Shown here piece by piece: positions 111 through 27,877 of a stretch of 38,836 nt of DNA. Each line of letters opens with the position of its first letter. Positions within the stretch are counted from its first letter, which is position 1. Location: positions 1 through 38,836 of the forward strand of contig CAIUPE010000147.1 in the NCBI GenBank assembly GCA_903900975.1. The letters run 5' to 3'. Made by a program: the position numbers and the translations under genes. Under the pieces are notes generated by a model. That model was not told where the DNA came from, ran no database searches, and saw nothing but the letters and a program-made list of their open reading frames with translations. This DNA comes from an uncultured Hyphomicrobiales bacterium. Its GTDB lineage: Bacteria > Pseudomonadota > Alphaproteobacteria > Rhizobiales > Beijerinckiaceae.

Positions 111-210
111 CCACATATGAAAAGTTGAATATTTTTTGAATTGCAACTAAAAATATAAAATAACCCTCGTGTTTTTTGAGTGTTATGATTTTCGATAAAT
201 TTATTTGTAG
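111..210. other. AT-rich non-coding stretch between IS end and nadA promoter region
   Basis: About 100 bases that are clearly more AT-rich than the rest of the window, including an 8-bp inverted repeat (ATATTTTT at 130-137, AAAAATAT at 150-157). No credible gene was found. It may be the flank into which the insertion sequence moved, or an upstream promoter element; neither is shown. Confidence 0.4.
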
Positions 211-260
211 ACCCTCACCTGTCGCCCCTACGGGCGACGTCCTCTCCCATCCAGGAGAGG
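211..260. repeat. REP-like double-hairpin intergenic repeat, copy 1
   Basis: Two hairpins in tandem: GTCGCCC/GGGCGAC (221-227 with 232-238) and CCTCTCC/GGAGAGG (241-247 with 254-260), introduced by ACCCTCACC. The order CCCTCACC, GC hairpin, CCTCTCC hairpin recurs between nadB and nadC at about 3125-3173, so this is a dispersed repeat family and not a unique terminator. No T-run follows. Confidence 0.6.
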
Positions 261-325
261 AAAGCGGCCCAAACAATTCCCCCCACCTCCGCATTTTCCA
301 TCTATCCAAGCACCCCCATCAGGCG

Positions 326-331
326 TATAAT
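326..331 (+). promoter_or_regulatory. Candidate -10 box of the nadA promoter
   Basis: A perfect TATAAT lies at 326-331. No convincing -35 hexamer is seen 16-18 bases upstream. Transcription would start at about 338, inside the first ATGCTC dyad (336-352), the arrangement expected of a repressor-controlled promoter. Assigned from sequence only. Confidence 0.4.
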
Positions 332-335
332 TCTT

Positions 336-352
336 ATGCTCTAAATGAGCAT
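336..352. promoter_or_regulatory. Candidate NAD-responsive operator 1 (ATGCTC-N5-GAGCAT)
   Basis: A perfect 6-bp dyad, ATGCTC-TAAAT-GAGCAT, directly downstream of the TATAAT at 326-331 and 86 bases before the nadA start at 438. A second, nearly identical dyad lies 72 bases downstream (centre to centre). The pair in front of nadABC, with a nadQ-type regulator gene at 26894-27877, makes these the best candidates for NadQ binding sites. That pairing is inference. Confidence 0.55.
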
Positions 353-407
353 TTATACCCTCGGGGAGGCAGACTGGCGACATCGCCGGTTTCTTTATCC
401 CGCTATT

Positions 408-424
408 ATGCTCCTAAAGAGTAT
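408..424. promoter_or_regulatory. Candidate NAD-responsive operator 2 (ATGCTC-N5-GAGTAT)
   Basis: ATGCTC-CTAAA-GAGTAT repeats operator 1 with a single change in the right arm and the same 5-base spacer; both copies are preceded by TT. It ends 3 bases before the nadA ribosome-binding site (GGAG, 428-431), so a bound repressor could block elongation or loop to operator 1; both sites would be occupied by the same protein. Confidence 0.5.
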
Positions 425-437
425 AACGGAGATGACC

Positions 438-1529
438 ATGAGCGCTTTGTCGACGACCGCCTCAATCCCATCAAGCATCGTGCCCCCTAGCGCGCCCTCC
501 GCGCTCGTCCAGCGGCTAGGCATCCTACCCATGCCGAACCTCGCTTGGACGCCGGAAGTCGAGCGCGAGACGGCCGAGATTTACGCTCGCGTGCAGCACG
601 TCATCCCTTCCGTCGAATGGCCCTTCCACGCGCCCTATATCGCCGCGATCAATCGCCTCAAAAAAGAGCGCAACGCGGTGATCTTGGCGCATAATTACCA
701 GACGCCGGAAATCTTCCACGGCGTGGCCGATATCGTCGGCGACTCGCTGCAATTAGCCCGCAAGGCGACAGAGGTTGATGCCGATATCATCGTGCAATGC
801 GGCGTGCATTTCATGGCGGAGACATCAAAGCTCCTGAACCCTGAAAAAACCATCCTCATCCCCGACACCCGCGCCGGATGCTCGCTCGCCGCCTCCATCA
901 CAGGCGCCGATGTCCGCTTGCTGAAACAGCGCTACCCCGGCGTGCCGGTTGTTACATACGTCAACTCCTCAGCGGATGTAAAAGCCGAAACCGATGTCTG
1001 CTGCACCTCGTCCAACGCCGTGCAGATTGTGGAGAGCTTGGGCGTCGACCGCGTTATCTTTTTGCCCGATGAATATTTGGGCAAATATGTCGCCTCCAAA
1101 ACGCACGTCAAACTCATCCTCTGGAAGGGCCATTGCGAAGTGCATGAGCGCTTCTCGGGCGAGGAACTCCGCGCCTATCGTGAAGCTGACCCGAGCATCG
1201 AAATCATCGCGCATCCCGAATGCCCGCCAGACGTGTTGGCGGAGGCCGATTTCACCGGCTCAACCGCGCATATGATCGACTGGGTCAAGACCGGCACCCA
1301 CAAGCGCGTGTTGATGGTCACCGAATGCTCGATGGCGTCGAATGTCGCGGCCGAAGCTCCGGAGGTGGATTTCATCCGCCCCTGCAATCTCTGCCCGCAT
1401 ATGAAGCGCATCACGCTGCCAAAAATCTTGGATAGCCTGGTATACCTCCGCGATGAGGTAATCGTTGATCCAGTCATTGCCGATAAAGCCCGTGCCTCGG
1501 TTGAACGCATGATTGCGTTGGGCCGATAG
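438..1529 (+). CDS. nadA: Quinolinate synthase NadA
   Basis: Condenses iminoaspartate with dihydroxyacetone phosphate to quinolinate in de novo NAD synthesis, using a [4Fe-4S] cluster. From the ATG at 438 the protein has 363 residues. The cluster ligands fit the family pattern: C121 in CGVHFMAE, C233 in GHCEVHE and C319 in NLCPHMK; substrate motifs AHNYQ (84-88) and GDSLQLA (101-107) are present. The start at 438 is preferred because GGAG at 428-431 sits 6 bases upstream; in-frame starts at 345, 408 and 432 would include or crowd the operator region. The stop overlaps the nadB start by one base, so nadA and nadB are translationally coupled. Two ATGCTC dyads upstream suggest NAD-dependent repression. 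Confidence 0.95.
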
Positions 1530-3052
1530 TGTCCTCCTCCGTTGTCATTGTCGGAGGCGGATTAGCAGGCCTGTTCTGCGCGCTAAAACTCGCACCGCGC
1601 CCCGTCACGGTACTCGCCACTTCACCACTCGGCGAAGGCGCATCCTCCGCTTGGGCGCAAGGCGGCATTGCAGCGGCGATGGCGGAAGGCGATACGCCTG
1701 AAAAGCACACGGCCGATACGCTCGCCGCTGGCGGCGGCATTGTCGATGAAGCCATCACGCTCAGTATGGCGCGTGAAGCGGGGGATCGCGTGCGCGATCT
1801 CTTAAGTTTTGGTGTGCCGTTCGACAAAGACCTCGCAGGCCATCTCGTGCAATCCCGCGAAGCCGCGCATTCCGAGCGTCGCATCGTACGCGTGCGGGGT
1901 GATATGGCAGGGGCCGCCATCATGCAGGCGCTGATTGCAGCCGTCCGCACAACACCTTCCATCACCGTATTAGAAGGCATCACCGCCGAGCAACTTTTAA
2001 CCGAAGGCGGAAAAGTAACAGGCGTTGCCGCGCGCGATGAAAGTGACAGGCTAACCCATTACCATGCCAGCGATGTGGTGCTCGCCACAGGCGGCATCGG
2101 CCATCTTTATGCGATGACGACAAACCCGAAAGAAGCCTGCGGCAACGGCATCAGCATGGCAGCGCTCGCGGGTGCCGTCATTGCCGACGCCGAGTTCGTG
2201 CAATTCCACCCCACCGCCATCGCGATTGGTCGCGATCCCGCCCCGCTCGCTACCGAGGCACTGCGCGGCGAAGGCGCAACGCTCGTCAACAAAGCGGGCA
2301 AGCGTTTTATGCTCGCTTTGCACAAAGACGCCGAGCTCGCCCCGCGCGACATTGTGGCAAGAGGCGTTTTCGCGGAGATCCAAGCCGGCCGTGGTGCGTT
2401 TTTGGATTGCCGCACCGCCATCGGCGAACGCTTCGCAGAAGCCTTCCCCACCGTCTACGCCACCTGCCAATCCGCCGGCATCGACCCCACAAAAGATTTG
2501 ATCCCCATAGCCCCCGCCGAGCACTACCACATGGGCGGCGTAATAACCTCCTCGCAGGGCCGTAGCACCTGCGAAGGCCTGTGGGCCATCGGCGAAGTCG
2601 CCTCCACGGGCGTGCATGGCGCAAACCGTCTCGCCTCGAACTCATTGCTTGAAGCCATCGTGTTTGCCGCCCGCGTGGCCGATGCTCTGCCCGCCGCGTT
2701 AAGCCCGGTGCAGGTAACCGAAAAAGGCAAAGCGCCCGCCATTCCTTTTGATCCCGACCTTGTCGACATGCTCCGCCAAACCATGACCGACCATGTCGGC
2801 GTCATCCGCACCAAAACAGGCCTGATGACCGCCATCTGGACGCTCGCCGACATAGAGGCCACGGGAGAGGCCCCAGAAGTCACCGCCATGGCAAGATCAG
2901 CGCTTTTTATCGCCACAGCCGCCTATGCAAGGCTAGAAAGCCGCGGCGGGCATTACCGCTCCGATTATCCCGAAACCAACCCCGCGCTGGCGCATCGCTC
3001 CAAGGTGACGCTCGATGAGGTGCGCGCGATTGTGGCGGGGGTGTTGGGGTGA
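1529..3052 (+). CDS. nadB: L-aspartate oxidase NadB
   Basis: Flavoenzyme oxidising L-aspartate to iminoaspartate, the substrate NadA uses. The 507-residue length is normal. The N-terminal FAD-binding dinucleotide fold shows GGGLAG (9-14); further family marks are [12 protein letters not shown] near 40-51, REAAHSERR near 110-118, EHYHMGGV near 331-338 and [14 protein letters not shown] near 361-374, the last two lining flavin and substrate. Translation starts at a GTG whose first base is the last base of the nadA TAG stop, so expression probably depends on coupling; no strong ribosome-binding site is seen. It is followed by a 165-base gap holding repeats before nadC. Confidence 0.95.
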
Positions 3053-3217: not shown

Positions 3218-4060
3218 ATGCTCAACCCGCTCGCTATTGAAGACGCCGTCAAAGGCGCCCTCCTCGAAGACCTCGGCCGCGCGGGCGACATCACCACGCT
3301 TGCCACCATCCCCGCCTCCGCCCGCGCCCGCGCGGTGCTCGCGGCGCGTCAAGAAGGTGTCATTGCCGGCAGCAAAATTGCGATTGTCGCCTTCCGCATG
3401 ATGGATGCATCCGTGCGCTTCGACACTCACCTCGCCGATGGCTCAACGGTTAAGAAAGGCGATGTCGTGCTCGCTGTCGAAGGCCCCGCCCGCGCCATTC
3501 TCTCGGCGGAGCGTGTAGCGCTGAATTATATGGGCCGCCTTTCCGGCATCGCCTCGCTCACGGCCTTGTATGTAAAGGCCGTCGCCCACACCAAAGCGCG
3601 GATCGTCTGCACCCGCAAAACCACGCCGGGTCTGCGCGCGTTTGAAAAATACGCCGTGCGCTGCGGCGGAGGCTTCAACCACCGCTTCGGGCTGGATGAC
3701 GCCATCCTCATCAAAGACAACCACATCGCAGTCGCAGGCGGCATTGTACCCGCACTTCGCGCGGTAAAAGCCAGCATCGGCCATCTCGTCAAAATCGAAA
3801 TCGAAGTCGACACGCTCGACCAGCTCAACGAGGTATTGAAAGAGGGCGCCGACGTGGTGCTGCTCGACAATATGACGCCAGCGCAACTCCGCGAAGCCGT
3901 CACCCGCGTAAGTGGCCAAATGCTCACCGAAGCCTCCGGCGGCGTAAACCTCGAAACGGTCGCGGCCATTGCGGAGAGCGGCGTGGATATGATCTCCGTC
4001 GGCGCGCTAACGCACTCCGCCAAGGTGCTGGATTTGGGGTTGGATATCGGCGTGAATTAA
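3218..4060 (+). CDS. nadC: Nicotinate-nucleotide pyrophosphorylase (carboxylating) NadC
   Basis: Quinolinate phosphoribosyltransferase, third step of de novo NAD synthesis, giving nicotinate mononucleotide. The 280 residues are the usual length. Typical motifs: [12 protein letters not shown] (15-26), [18 protein letters not shown] (96-113), the substrate-binding TRKTTPGLR (132-140), H155-R156, KDNH (166-169), and the barrel-closing VEVDTL and LLDNM segments. Separated from nadB by a repeat-filled gap, so it may be cotranscribed with nadAB but have its own level. The TAA stop is one base from the nrsF stop on the other strand. Confidence 0.95.
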
Positions 4061-4061
4061 A

Positions 4062-4700
4062 TCACCACCGCAGCCATTTCGCTCCCATCGCCGCGCCAAT
4101 CCCGGTCGTTATAGCAATGGCCAAAGAATACCAGAGCGCGACAAACAACGCGCTGTCATCCGGGCAATGCAGCGCATAGATGAAGGCCGCCATGCCGCCT
4201 GCAACACAGCCTGCCACCGCCCCCGAAAACACGGGGCGTGTCGGCGCTCCATTATGCAGAAAAACCATCAAGACAACGAGCGGCCCCATGGCAAGCGCCG
4301 GTATGCTTCGCAAACAAGCAATTGGATAACGGCCCATCATTCCGGATACCCAAAAATCAACGGGACTTGTCGCGAGTTGAAACGCAATGCCGCAGGCTAA
4401 AACAAGCGCCGGAATCAAAAGATAAAACAAGGGCGAAACTATGTTGGCTTCAGGCCGCAGCAAGGCCTTAACCAAAGGCAACAGCGATCCGAACAAGGAA
4501 GCGGCGAAGACAAATTTAAACACCAAATGTGGATCAGCGACCACATGGGCAAAATCAGCGCGGATGCCGAGAAAGGCTAAAAATATCGCGAGCGAAAACG
4601 CCAGTCCAAACGCAACAACGATTCCCATGGCAAAGCGGCTCACGCCCGGGCGGGTGGCGTGATCTTCCACCAATGCATTGATGAAATCATCGTTCTTCAT
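4062..4700 (-). CDS. nrsF: NrsF-type membrane anti-sigma factor (DUF1109)
   Basis: Multi-pass inner-membrane protein of 212 residues whose family (NrsF, DUF1109) holds the SigF-type ECF sigma factor inactive at the membrane until metal or oxidative stress. Six hydrophobic stretches are visible, at roughly 23-44, 60-80, 88-110, 128-148, 156-176 and 184-204. Two cysteines fall where the family has conserved ones: C129 in CLRSIP and C179 in HCPDDS; in the Caulobacter protein such cysteines are needed for response. The start ATG overlaps the sigF stop as ATGA, so the pair is cotranslated. Whether this protein senses copper, chromate or another signal is not shown by sequence. Confidence 0.85.
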   Translation of the reverse strand: MKNDDFINALVEDHATRPGVSRFAMGIVVAFGLAFSLAIFLAFLGIRADFAHVVADPHLVFKFVFAASLFGSLLPLVKALLRPEANIVSPLFYLLIPALVLACGIAFQLATSPVDFWVSGMMGRYPIACLRSIPALAMGPLVVLMVFLHNGAPTRPVFSGAVAGCVAGGMAAFIYALHCPDDSALFVALWYSLAIAITTGIGAAMGAKWLRW

Positions 4701-5257
4701 AGTGCAAGCCTCCGATACGCTTCAGCCATTGCCTTTAATCCTCGATGCAAGGCCACTCGTACTGCACCCTCAGTCATATTCATCGTTACCGCCACCTCAC
4801 GAATGGACGCACCTTTGATCGATATGGAGCGCACGACCTTCTGTTGCGTTTCACTCACACTCTCCATAAGCCGCCCGATTTCATGATCGGCAAGTGCTGG
4901 CTCCTCCGGCTCAGGTGCCGCCAGTTCAAACGTCTCGTCTAGTTCAATCTCTTTCCGACGCCCATATTTGCGCGCCAGATCAATTAGCTTGTAACGCGTG
5001 ATCGCTGCAATCCATGGGCCAATCGGTTGATCCTCGCGCCACGTATGGCGTTTCAAATGCACCGCCAGCAAAGTCTCCTGCACGGCATCTTCTAGATCGG
5101 CTAAAGGCGTGCCGATCCGACCAATTCCGCCACGCGCCATACCCCGCACGAGAGGGGCCAAATGCTCCAAAAACGAACGATAGGCCAGCGCATCTCCTGC
5201 ATTTGCTCGTTGCAGCAGCACACCCAAAGCCTTGGTCTTCGTGTCAAAATCATTCAT
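4697..5257 (-). CDS. sigF: ECF sigma factor of the SigF / ECF16 type
   Basis: Small alternative sigma factor of 186 residues from the ATG at 5257. Region 2 spans about 54-101, with DLEDAVQETLLAVH followed by W81 and the DLARKYGRR -10-recognition helix; region 4 helix-turn-helix spans about 127-180 (REVAVTMNMTEGAVRVALHRG). It overlaps nrsF, its likely anti-sigma, and is divergent from the bufferin operon, as in Caulobacter. An in-frame TTG at 5278 would add seven residues, but a possible SigF-type -10 (CGAA, 5273-5270) would then lie inside the gene, so ATG 5257 is preferred. No strong ribosome-binding site is seen for either start. Confidence 0.88.
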   Translation of the reverse strand: MNDFDTKTKALGVLLQRANAGDALAYRSFLEHLAPLVRGMARGGIGRIGTPLADLEDAVQETLLAVHLKRHTWREDQPIGPWIAAITRYKLIDLARKYGRRKEIELDETFELAAPEPEEPALADHEIGRLMESVSETQQKVVRSISIKGASIREVAVTMNMTEGAVRVALHRGLKAMAEAYRRLAL

Positions 5258-5269
5258 CGGTTCAATGTC

Positions 5270-5294
5270 TTCGCTCAAACAGAGAAAGTGTTAC
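5270..5294 (-). promoter_or_regulatory. Candidate SigF-type promoter for sigF-nrsF (autoregulation)
   Basis: On the minus strand GTAACA (5294-5289) is followed after 15 bases by CGAA (5273-5270). This resembles the divergent promoter at 5329-5354 but with one base less spacing. It would give an almost leaderless sigF mRNA starting near the ATG at 5257. Autoregulation is therefore possible, not established. Confidence 0.35.
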
Positions 5295-5328
5295 AAAACC
5301 AACCGCAAAAAAAAATTATTTTCCCAAC

Positions 5329-5354
5329 GTAACATATCCGAACAGTGCGACGAA
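5329..5354 (+). promoter_or_regulatory. SigF-dependent promoter of the bufferin operon
   Basis: GTAACA at 5329-5334 and CGAA at 5351-5354, exactly 16 bases apart, match the GTAACC-N16-CGAA form known for Caulobacter SigF promoters. It lies 53 bases before the start of the DUF2282 gene and reads towards it. The match is seen in sequence; dependence on the sigF product encoded next door is inferred. Confidence 0.65.
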
Positions 5355-5407
5355 AAGGTTGATACGGGGCCACTGACGGACCCGCTCAACCCTTCAGGAG
5401 ATCTCTC

Positions 5408-5728
5408 ATGACCCGCACGTCTTCCCTCGTTCTCGCCGCTTCGCTCGCTTCCGCACTTGGCGCGTTTGTCATTCCTGCTTCTGCCGATGACATGATGTTC
5501 TCGGCCAAGGCTGGCGAAAAAATTGAAGCCATGAAGGCTGGCACGGAAAAATGCTTCGGCGTTGCCTTGAAGGGACAAAACAATTGCGCAGCGGGCGCAG
5601 GTACCACCTGCGCTGGCACGTCAAAGGTTGATTACCAGGGCAATGCGTGGCGCCTCGTGCCAGCAGGCACCTGCACCACGATGATGACGCCAAAGGGCCA
5701 CGGCTCGCTTACCGAAATCAAGGCATAA
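5408..5728 (+). CDS. bufA: Bufferin-type RiPP precursor (DUF2282, four cysteines)
   Basis: Secreted 106-residue precursor peptide. Residues 1-26 form a signal peptide (TRTSS, hydrophobic core, cleavage after VIPASA). The mature part has four cysteines, C49 in [11 protein letters not shown]60 in QNNC, C68 in TTCAGTS and C89 in AGTCTT, with the family stretch [13 protein letters not shown] between the last two. In characterised bufferins the neighbouring MNIO enzyme turns such cysteines into thiooxazoles that bind copper, protecting the periplasm. AGGAG at 5396-5400 supports the start. It is the first gene after the SigF promoter and is followed 80 bases later by the MNIO gene. Confidence 0.88.
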
Positions 5729-5808
5729 GTTCCGTTTTCTCCCCGCCAAACTCGGGCGCGCAGTTCCGCTGCGCGCCCCTTTTCCAGCACCACGTGGAGT
5801 CGTCTGCC

Positions 5809-6663
5809 ATGATCCCTTCAGCCCTCTCGCCCACTGTCGGCGTTGGCTTTAAGCCCGAGCATTATGAAGGCATTGCAGCAGCCCCCGGCCCCTTAGGCTT
5901 TATCGAAATCCACGCCGAAAACTATATGGGCGAAGGCGGCATGCCGCATGCGATGCTCGAGCGTTTACGCCCCGATTACGCGCTGTCGATCCATGGCGTC
6001 GGCCTTTCCATCGGTGGTGCTGGCCCACTTGATCAAGACCATCTTCAGCGGCTCAAAATCCTCTGTGACCGCTATCAGCCCCAAAGCTTCTCCGAGCATC
6101 TGGCTTGGTCCACCCATGCGGGTGCCTTTCTCAACGACCTTTTGCCGCTGCCTTATACGGAAGAGACGCTCAGCCACATCATCCGCCATATTGACGAGGT
6201 GCAGACGGTGCTTAACCGCCAAATGCTGCTCGAAAATCCATCGACCTATTTGCGCTTTGACGAAAGCACGATTCCGGAAACAGAATTTTTGAACCTGATT
6301 GCCCAGCGCACCGGTTGCGGGTTGCTGCTCGACATCAACAATGTGTTCGTCTCTTCGACCAACCACCAGCTTGATCCGCGCGCCTATCTCACCGCATTCC
6401 CGCTCTCATATGTTGGCGAAATTCATCTCGGCGGACACAATGAAGACACCGACGACGAGGGTGCGGTGCTGCTGATTGATGCGCATGGTTCGCCCACCGC
6501 CGATTCGGTCTGGGCACTTTACGCCGAGACGCTTGCCAAAACCGGTCCCATCGCCACGCTGATTGAATGGGACAATGAGGTTCCAGCTTGGCCTGTGTTG
6601 CGCGCGGAAGTTGAGCGGGCCAATGCCCTCCTCGCCCCGTCGCTTGCTCAACACGCCGCGTGA
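5809..6663 (+). CDS. bufB: MNIO-family peptide-modifying enzyme (DUF692)
   Basis: Multinuclear non-haem iron oxygenase-like enzyme (DUF692, relative of MbnB) expected to oxidise cysteines of the upstream precursor. From ATG 5809 it has 284 residues, the family size; GGAG at 5796-5799 supports this start over an in-frame one at 5647 inside the precursor gene. Metal-site motifs of the TIM barrel are intact: EIHAENY (33-39), [11 protein letters not shown] (60-70), SEHLAWS (95-101), ENPSTYL (142-148), [11 protein letters not shown] (172-182), GEIHLGGH (203-210), LIDAHG (222-227) and IEWDNEVP (252-259). The stop overlaps the next gene by four bases, so enzyme and partner are made together. Confidence 0.9.
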
Positions 6664-7400
6664 AAGCCATGCATCAAGCCTTTGAAACCCGCTTCGCGCA
6701 CAACCTCTTGGCCGCTAAACCACCAACGCCCTCCAAACGCTTCGCGGTATACCGCAACAATGTGTTTGTGGGCTTGGTTGAAGCCCTCAGGCTTCGCTTT
6801 CCGGCCGTGCAAAATGCGGTCGGTGCTGACTTTTTCTTGGCGCTTGCGCGTGACTATGCGGGCGGAAACCCGCCGAGCTCGCCCTTGATGATGCAGTATG
6901 GCGATCAGTTCCCGACCTTCATTGAAGGCTTTCCGCCGCTTGCCGATTTTCCTTGGCTGGCCGATCTTGCGCGGCTCGAAGTCGCGATAACACAGAGCTA
7001 CCATGCAGCCGATGCTGCCGCGCTCGGCCCGCACGATTTTGCTCGCATCGCGCCAGAGGATTTAAGCCGGCTTCGCATGACGTTGCATCCCGCCATGAGG
7101 CTCATTGTGTCGCGCTTTCCGGTGACGACCCTGTGGCGGATGAACCGGGGCGAGGCACCCTTGGCGACGATTGAGGCATGGTCCGCCGAGACCGCTTTGA
7201 TCTACCGCCCGCACTTCACGGTCGCGGTGGATGCGTTGAGCCCGGCCAGTGGCACCTTTCTCACATCCCTCTACGCGGGCGACACGCTGGCCGACGCCGT
7301 CGAACAGGCGGCCCTGATCGACGACCACTTCGACCTCACCACCCAATGGCAGTGCCTGATCAACAACGGGCTTGTCACCACCCTTACCCTTGATGATTAG
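6660..7400 (+). CDS. bufC: DUF2063 partner protein of the MNIO enzyme
   Basis: About 246 residues. The N-terminal DUF2063 domain carries the family mark RFAVYRNNV near 26-34 and [14 protein letters not shown] near 77-90. DUF2063 proteins are the MbnC-like partners of DUF692 enzymes, bind the precursor and are needed for modification. The frame opens with GTG at 6660, forming a GTGA overlap with the MNIO stop; ATG at 6669 is an alternative start and neither has a good ribosome-binding site, so translation is probably coupled. No membrane segment or signal peptide, consistent with action in the cytoplasm before export of the peptide. Confidence 0.85.
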
Positions 7401-7414
7401 AACCGGAGCACCCC

Positions 7415-7873
7415 ATGAAAACTGCCCTCACCCAAGCCAAAACCCTGATCCAAACGCTGTTTACCCAGTTTGAGAAACTCCCCTATTCCCTTATCGCCCT
7501 GCTTGCGCATGTCTCCATTGGCGGCGTGTTTTGGATGTCAGGCCAAACCAAAGTCTCCGGCTTTCATTTGGCTGAGGGCACCGTTGACCTCTTCCGCGAC
7601 GAGTACCATCTCCCTTTGATCGACCCGACGCTCGCCGCCATCTTGGCCGCCATCAGTGAGCATCTTTTCTCAGCCCTCCTCATCGTCGGGCTGGCCAGCC
7701 GCTTCTCGGCCTTAGCGCTCCTCGGCATGACGCTGGTGATCGAAATCTTCGTCTACCCTGACGCCTGGGCAACGCACGGCACCTGGGCCACCTGCTTCCT
7801 GCTCATCATCACCAAAGGCCCGGGCATTGTTTCGCTCGATTGGATCTGGTTCGGGAAACGGATGCGGGGGTGA
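7415..7873 (+). CDS. DoxX-family membrane protein of the bufferin operon
   Basis: A 152-residue inner-membrane protein with four hydrophobic stretches near 24-42, 68-90, 95-112 and 118-136, and the DoxX marks GGVFWMSGQTKV (36-47) and SEHLFSALLIVGLASR (80-95). GGAG at 7405-7408 precedes the ATG. It follows the DUF2063 gene by 14 bases and closes the operon. DoxX proteins commonly accompany DUF692/DUF2063/DUF2282 genes; a role in redox or metal handling at the membrane is assumed from association only. Confidence 0.85.
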   Translation: MKTALTQAKTLIQTLFTQFEKLPYSLIALLAHVSIGGVFWMSGQTKVSGFHLAEGTVDLFRDEYHLPLIDPTLAAILAAISEHLFSALLIVGLASRFSALALLGMTLVIEIFVYPDAWATHGTWATCFLLIITKGPGIVSLDWIWFGKRMRG

Positions 7874-26893: not shown

Positions 26894-27877
26894 TCACCCC
26901 CGCTTACCCACCCTCAACCCCGGCGCAGGTCTTTCCTGCAAAACATCTCGCCTGAAACGGAAGAGGGCTGCGGGTCTGCCGCGGGTTGTCGTCCGGCTTC
27001 CTGTCGGCTCGACAAGCGCGGTTGTCTCAACCAATCGTCTGAAATTTTGCTTATGGAGGTGGCGGCCCGAGATCGCTTCCACCGTTCTTTGCAAGGCCGT
27101 CAGCGTAAAGCTTGGCGGCATTAGCTCGAACACCACGGGGCGATATTTCAGCTTGGCGCGTAACCGCCCCATTGCGGTGGCAAGAATGCGGCGATGATCG
27201 TGCAGCATAGGCTCGCCAAACCGCCGTGCGGATGCGGCATCAATCGCGCCGGAGCGGCCATCGCGCCCCGCTTCAAACACTAGCCCTGCTTCATAGAGCA
27301 GCTCGTACCGGTCGAGCACTTTTTCCTCATCCCACGGGCCGGAATCCGTGCCAAAGCAAAAGCGCAAACGCTCCACCCGCGATAAGGGCCTCAACCGCGC
27401 TTCGGCCTTTTCGCCCTCCGTATCGGCAGCCCAAGCATTCAAACGCGGCAGAATTTCCCGATCCACGATTGAAGGGCGACCCCCGCGCCAATCTTCCCAT
27501 GGAAAAAAGCGATACCAAGGTTGAAACGACGCCGATTTCGGCAGCTCATCGGTCTTCAACGCCACGCGCGTCAGGGCCAGATAACCGATCGAGACCACAT
27601 GCGGCGCACCATCATTAGGCCTTGCATGCCGCCCGCGATCCGCAAACGTATAAAGTTGCTCGACATAGCCTAACGACAGGCCCGATTGATCAGCCACAAA
27701 AGCGCGCAATGCAATTTCAAGCGTGCGATGCGACAGAGGATCGAAACTGCCATAGGGCAGACCGTCATCGCCCCCCTCGCTGCGCGCCACTAAAATCTGT
27801 GGCGTATCGCCCTCCACCGCCACAATGGCGGCGGCAAGGCCAATTTCAATCGGCGTTTCGATCTGGCGTTCGTTCAT
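26894..27877 (-). CDS. nadQ: NadQ-type NAD-biosynthesis regulator (Nudix-like domain plus winged HTH)
   Basis: A 327-residue protein with an N-terminal Nudix-fold domain (about 10-140) that has lost the catalytic box: the helix reads LEIALRAFVADQSGL with no REXXEE. It ends in an NrtR-like winged helix domain (about 238-320: LKYRPVVFELMPPSFTLTAL, HKQNFRRLVE, GRPAALFRF). This combination (COG4111) is the alphaproteobacterial NadQ family, predicted repressors of NAD synthesis genes. The window also contains nadABC, with two ATGCTC dyads in front, which would be its targets. It is the last gene of a five-gene minus-strand operon, 5 bases after the tyrosine phosphatase, and converges on the toxin gene. 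Confidence 0.85.
   Translation of the reverse strand: MNERQIETPIEIGLAAAIVAVEGDTPQILVARSEGGDDGLPYGSFDPLSHRTLEIALRAFVADQSGLSLGYVEQLYTFADRGRHARPNDGAPHVVSIGYLALTRVALKTDELPKSASFQPWYRFFPWEDWRGGRPSIVDREILPRLNAWAADTEGEKAEARLRPLSRVERLRFCFGTDSGPWDEEKVLDRYELLYEAGLVFEAGRDGRSGAIDAASARRFGEPMLHDHRRILATAMGRLRAKLKYRPVVFELMPPSFTLTALQRTVEAISGRHLHKQNFRRLVETTALVEPTGSRTTTRGRPAALFRFRRDVLQERPAPGLRVGKRG

Follow-up and report, generated by a model that had tools for sequence, protein, structure and literature searches.

In the leader of nadA we found a GC hairpin followed by a T-tract (374-396), lying between two predicted operators for the repressor NadQ, O1 at the promoter and O2 in the transcribed leader. This element is new relative to the original prediction for this DNA, which did not mention it. 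Where such a hairpin occurs in other genomes, it nearly always ends 15-19 nt before O2, and O2 and the hairpin are probably coupled in function. We give an even chance to the view that O1 blocks initiation while NadQ, once bound to O2, detains RNA polymerase at the T-tract, which would make the leader a repressor-gated terminator. The features lie in the window, i.e., the whole stretch of 38,836 nucleotides that was analysed:

326-331, plus strand: -10 box TATAAT of the nadA promoter, with a weak -35 box (genus alignment)
336-352, no strand: O1, predicted NadQ operator just 3' of the -10 box, ATGCTC-TAAAT-GAGCAT, kept across the genus
374-389, plus strand: GC hairpin of the nadA leader, CTGGCG, loop ACAT, CGCCGG (strict scan)
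390-396, plus strand: T-tract TTTCTTT behind the hairpin (window sequence)
408-424, no strand: O2, predicted NadQ operator in the transcribed leader, ATGCTC-CTAAA-GAGTAT
438-1529, plus strand: nadA, quinolinate synthase (PF02445, 1.8e-114)
1529-3052, plus strand: nadB, L-aspartate oxidase (NCBIfam NF005701, above cut-off)
3218-4060, plus strand: nadC, quinolinate phosphoribosyltransferase (TIGR00078, above cut-off)
26894-27877, minus strand: nadQ, COG4111-type repressor with an NrtR-type winged helix (PDB 7q91, PF21906)

On sequence grounds, O1 and O2 are almost certainly NadQ operators of the known kind. The two dyads are placed and built as originally predicted, with these arms, 5-base spacers and a leading TT, and their starts are 72 bases apart. 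They stand in front of nadA, nadB and nadC, in this order, the genes of NAD (vitamin B3) synthesis, as had also been claimed. O2 ends at 424 and is followed by GGAG at 428-431 and the nadA ATG at 438. The TATAAT box is present where it was expected. It is invariant in all nine of the nine aligned genus members, and its distance to O1 is constant in them, which indicates that O1 goes with the promoter. An automated promoter scan of window positions 150-460 returned no full sigma-70 promoter. In two genomes (G005 and G011; loci L054 and L116), a third dyad precedes the next dyad by 24 nt on the upstream side, and the right half of this third dyad, GAGTATAAT, includes the -10 box.

The regulator itself is encoded in the window, and its claimed identity was borne out: the product of 26894-27877 (minus strand) is similar over its full length to the solved NadQ structure 7q91 (residues 14-322, E 7.1e-78). 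The protein had been described as a Nudix/winged-HTH member of COG4111. The winged helix was found at the C-terminus (NrtR type, PF21906, 1.1e-20, above cut-off), and the Nudix part is only loosely right, as a Pfam search of the protein gave no hit to a Nudix family at E<=1. The title of a 2022 paper by Minazzato et al. is said to call NadQ Nudix-like, and it reportedly names ATP as the effector. Against the NCBIfam model of ADPR-responsive NrtR-like repressors, the window protein scored 63.7 bits and did not reach the cut-off of 400. In the accessible part of Leyn et al. 2016 (PMC5343134), the NadQ consensus is given as ttATRCTCannntGAGYATaa, the core regulon is nadABC with 67 sites in 30 genomes, and the N-terminal domain is termed unlike that of NrtR. 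The arms and the leading TT of both dyads fit this palindrome, while the spacer and the trailing AA fit it partially. The window thus shares regulator family, palindrome and nadABC target with that regulon; the same part of the paper mentions neither a leader hairpin nor a fixed distance between hairpin and site.

Many chance copies of the dyad across the genome had likewise been named as evidence against the assignment, and such copies are few. O1 and O2 are the sole exact matches to ATGCTCN5GAGYAT in the window and in its own genome (2,907,443 bases in 153 contigs). With ATRCTCN5GAGYAT there are two places in this genome and none for the reversed control; dyads with one mismatch occur at 10 further places.

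Furthermore, the dyad and NadQ occur together. We scanned up to 500 nt before nadA for the site, allowing up to one mismatch. With both sets pooled, 131 of the 134 alphaproteobacterial genomes that have NadQ carry the site, as against 1 of the 46 rows that lack NadQ; relatedness among the genomes means that these counts, like the hairpin counts below, are not independent. Dyads missing from relatives that have nadQ had been named as evidence against the assignment, and the relatives have them. The searches covered 60 relatives, with a NadQ match in 45 (two weak ones uncounted) and a nadA match in 45, and 144 members of the class, with a NadQ match in 39 (one weak one uncounted) and a nadA match in 60. 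The weak or partial NadQ matches (G017, G034 and G115), all in genomes with no nadA match, were not counted as NadQ, and G008, whose nadA is cut at a contig end, and a 3' nadA fragment of G005 were omitted from the upstream scans. In the first set, 73 of the 74 genomes that have NadQ carried the site (exception G056), against 1 of 29 rows without NadQ (28 genomes; exception G049), and shuffled upstream sequences gave a site in a mean of 0.23 of 74. The second set consisted of 92 new genomes among the nadA matches listed (161 genomes with nadA), and 58 of them had a site. NadQ was searched in 77 of the 92, the other 15 being without a site; 58 of 60 genomes with NadQ had the site (exceptions G251 and G374), against none of the 17 without. 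G049 (L071) carries two dyads upstream of nadA, and neither of two queries matched a NadQ in it; since this assembly is in about 430 contigs, the absence is possibly a gap. Three genomes (G006, G010 and G053) have NadQ and show neither a nadA match nor an exact dyad.

The window hairpin with its flanks (366-400) folds with -15.4 kcal/mol (z -4.1). The first base of O2 follows the final base of the stem by 19 nt, with 18 nt in between. In eight genus members, both partners have changed in three of the six pairs, and 97.9% of the cells are paired. The covariation score of this alignment is 0.464, versus 0.248 for shuffled alignments, and 1 of 500 shuffles reached it; the number of pairs changed on both sides was not above the shuffles, as 118 of 500 reached it. 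An automated terminator scan of window positions 150-460 reported no terminator, whereas our strict scan picks up the hairpin with TTTCTTT behind it. The automated scan may have passed over this element because the maximal stem extends into the T-tract. The idea that a second promoter has its -35 box within the hairpin was considered and rejected by eye.

In the leaders of many lineages, the stretch between O1 and O2 was seen to hold a GC hairpin and a T-tract. The strict scan was applied to the 70 nt that precede the last site and called a hairpin with at least 5 pairs, at least 4 GC pairs, a loop of 3-10 nt and at least 5 T in 8. In the first set, 38 of 74 genomes had the hairpin and T-tract, where about 2 were expected from shuffles, and in 36 of these 38 the stem ended 15-19 nt before O2 (the other two at 21 and 43). 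Among the genomes fetched after this rule had been seen, some of which share a genus or family with the first set, the hairpin was present in 16 of the 58 that have a site (1.1 expected); 15 of the 16 were 17-19 nt before O2 and one at 49. Eighty named loci, counted irrespective of NadQ and overlapping the other sets in part (apparently at least four: L305, L330, L332 and L336), gave 50 with a site and 19 with a hairpin, of which 18 were at 15-19 nt and one at 43; Rhizobium herbae, Chelatococcus composti and a Phenylobacterium are among them. The 51 hairpins at 15-19 nt in the first two sets carry 27 family labels by hand count. When the wider region from -170 to -30 relative to the nadA match was scanned, the hairpin was present in 35 of 74 genomes with NadQ and in 2 of 29 without.

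The hairpin was not found at every operator spacing, which counts against the gated terminator. In the first set, it was found at 25 of 31 loci with sites 40-90 apart, at none of 13 with sites less than 40 apart, at 10 of 25 with one site and at 3 of 5 where the distance exceeds 90; in the second set, a hand count gave 12 of 22 long-spaced, 4 of 22 single and none of 14 short-spaced loci. The hairpin sequence and the spacing of O1 and O2 vary while the distance from the hairpin to O2 stays. Relative to O2, the 51 loci are T-rich from -18 to -12 and C-rich from about -8 to -5. The gap from O1 to the hairpin ranges from 2 to 157 nt (40 loci with O1), so that the hairpin is locked to O2 and not to O1. 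Also against it, inspection by eye of Bradyrhizobium, Afipia and Rhodopseudomonas loci showed a hairpin in roughly this position whose T-tract is poor; such a hairpin may require NadQ, or may not be a terminator. No literature report of a coupling between hairpin and operator was found in sources outside Minazzato et al. 2022 and most subscription journals.

The best-surviving alternative, which we consider unlikely, is that O1 and O2 are ordinary operators, O2 being a plain roadblock or a spare, and that the role of the hairpin is limited to halting read-through from the preceding gene or to shaping the end of the mRNA. This alternative is favoured by a co-directional ORF (glyS-like by eye) with its end some 97, 197 and 344 nt before O1 in three genus members, by the position of nadQ itself just upstream of nadA in some genomes, and by the many genomes that have NadQ without the hairpin. 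However, a mere insulator would not stay 15-19 nt from O2. Moreover, among the 51 hairpin loci, O1 is upstream of the hairpin in 40 and a promoter-like element in 46 (the latter count being without a shuffle control), and nadA transcripts would therefore have to pass the hairpin.

The coupling of O2 and hairpin can be pictured as follows. NadQ on O1, at the promoter, should hinder initiation. The hairpin and T-tract resemble an intrinsic terminator, and O2 stands at a fixed distance behind it. NadQ on O2 would act as a roadblock, at which a polymerase that has passed O1 is slowed or halted while its active centre is close to the T-tract, and the hairpin would then release the polymerase stalled there. 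When NadQ leaves the DNA (the effector being, according to a title, reportedly ATP), both brakes would lift and nadABC would be read. In the window, the point 15 bp before O2 (the distance at which a roadblock stops Pol I, see below) is within the T-tract, and the bacterial release point is 10-11 nt before O2. Polymerase near this release point should therefore meet bound NadQ, and the simplest outcome would be a delay at the T-tract that favours release. The geometry is observed, and from it we infer the mechanism; that NadQ on O2 promotes termination, including the roadblock, its sign and the response to ligand, is in our estimate a proposition with equal weight for and against.

The sign could also be the opposite: NadQ on O2 would keep polymerase off the release point, and the result would be a stall without release, or less termination. 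Blocking the forward movement of polymerase has reportedly lowered intrinsic termination, which counts for this reading, and at the bacterial release point O2 is only 10-11 nt ahead, inside the polymerase footprint. The hairpin, however, would then oppose repression or be useless, and yet its register is fixed; we regard this reading as quite improbable.

That O2 acts as RNA, with the O2 stem or the C-rich linker trapping the ribosome-binding site, is very hard to uphold. The window leader does fold well (z -3.3), and the RNA of O2 is paired beside the ribosome-binding site. Against this, positions 3 and 15 vary independently in 68 exact sites: the combination of A and C, a mismatch in RNA, occurs 10 times and about 11 are expected. 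The dyads were therefore rejected as an RNA stem, since their two halves vary independently. Trapping by the C-rich linker (5-8 nt before O2, 51 loci) was rejected as well, as its pairing with the SD was not above that of shuffled linkers (1.14 versus 1.11; above the shuffles in 17 of 47). No Rfam family was found at gathering score in the window, and at E<=10 the only match in 300-470 was mir-16, below its cut-off.

The original prediction had also proposed that NadQ on O1 and O2 forms a DNA loop through their near-integral helical spacing; at least two sites (at most one mismatch) are indeed present in 48 of 74 genomes with NadQ, but looping is highly improbable and the spacing argument did not hold, because the last two sites are 22 to 212 apart (median 59, first set) with no preferred helical phase (p 0.2 to 0.8 at 10, 10.5 and 11 bp) and the genus members with at least two sites are unequally spaced (55, 71, 72 or 74; G002 has a single site).

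Terminators in which hairpin and roadblock cooperate are known from RNA polymerase I. According to the accessible part of PMC12366685, roadblock, T-rich stretch and RNA hairpin jointly release Pol I, and the roadblock alone does not; the roadblock stop is 15 bp before the site and the hairpin 20 nt before the RNA end. For bacteria, the same part puts the point of release some 8 nt beyond the hairpin, and it reports poor or slow hairpin-dependent release at LexA or Lac repressor roadblocks where backtracking is needed. The Pol I terminator (Reb1/Nsi1/TTF1) and the nadA leader thus have a hairpin, a T-rich stretch and a roadblock site in the same order. In contrast to the nadA leader, the Pol I terminator as described there (PMC12366685) is eukaryotic, is located at gene ends and is without ligand control, and hairpin and site are about 35 nt apart (20+15) versus 18 in the window. 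Because of this difference in spacing, we set our confidence in termination, in the coupling and in a gated terminator slightly lower. We consider possible, at a little under even chances, a general alphaproteobacterial device in which a ligand-responsive repressor, bound a fixed 15-19 nt behind the hairpin of a leader, turns on a weak intrinsic terminator; it would parallel the Pol I terminator in kind, with a different exact spacing.

Bacterial roadblocks by LacI, PurR, GalR, ArsR, CcpA and CodY, as treated in the accessible part of PMC10310618, are alike in that a repressor downstream of the start site hinders elongation, as is proposed for O2. They differ in that the release described there is by Mfd or possibly Rho and not by a built-in hairpin at a set distance. 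NrtR (COG1051 plus winged helix; eLife 2019, PMC6800001), in what is accessible of that paper, has a related C-terminal winged helix and NAD gene targets, and differs from NadQ in its N-terminal domain and palindrome.

With the operators alone, the window adds one member to a known regulon. Were the coupling real, initiation at this operon and its conditional terminator would be under the control of a single repressor, and polymerase geometry, not looping, would explain the second site of a double operator. The leader would then be a compact and widespread natural system for studying how a roadblock and an RNA hairpin cooperate, and the rule of an operator 15-19 nt after the stem could be searched for at other repressors.

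Sites away from nadA were also considered. NadQ autoregulation was rejected, as no site with one mismatch or fewer was present within 500 nt upstream of nadQ in any of the 42 genomes scanned; G053 has a single two-mismatch site. In the window's own genome, one of the 10 one-mismatch places was checked for a wider regulon: at C7:12706 (L004 1501-1517), a dyad with spacer TAAAT, ATGCTCTAAATAAGTAT, lies ahead of an ORF that is Omp-like by eye. It is not conserved in the genus, since the 11 other members match this DNA only up to query base 54 and the dyad is at 162-178. Of the exact sites away from nadA in relatives, five (L131-L135) were examined for ORFs: four are within a large ORF, and that of L134 is upstream of one.

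Downstream of nadC, window positions 4062-7873 hold a bufferin-type RiPP cluster. It contains HvfC-like and HvfX-like proteins below their NCBIfam cut-offs and an MNIO bufferin maturase above its own, together with an NrsF anti-sigma factor, an ECF sigma factor and a small, Cys-containing, secreted-looking ORF at 5408-5728.
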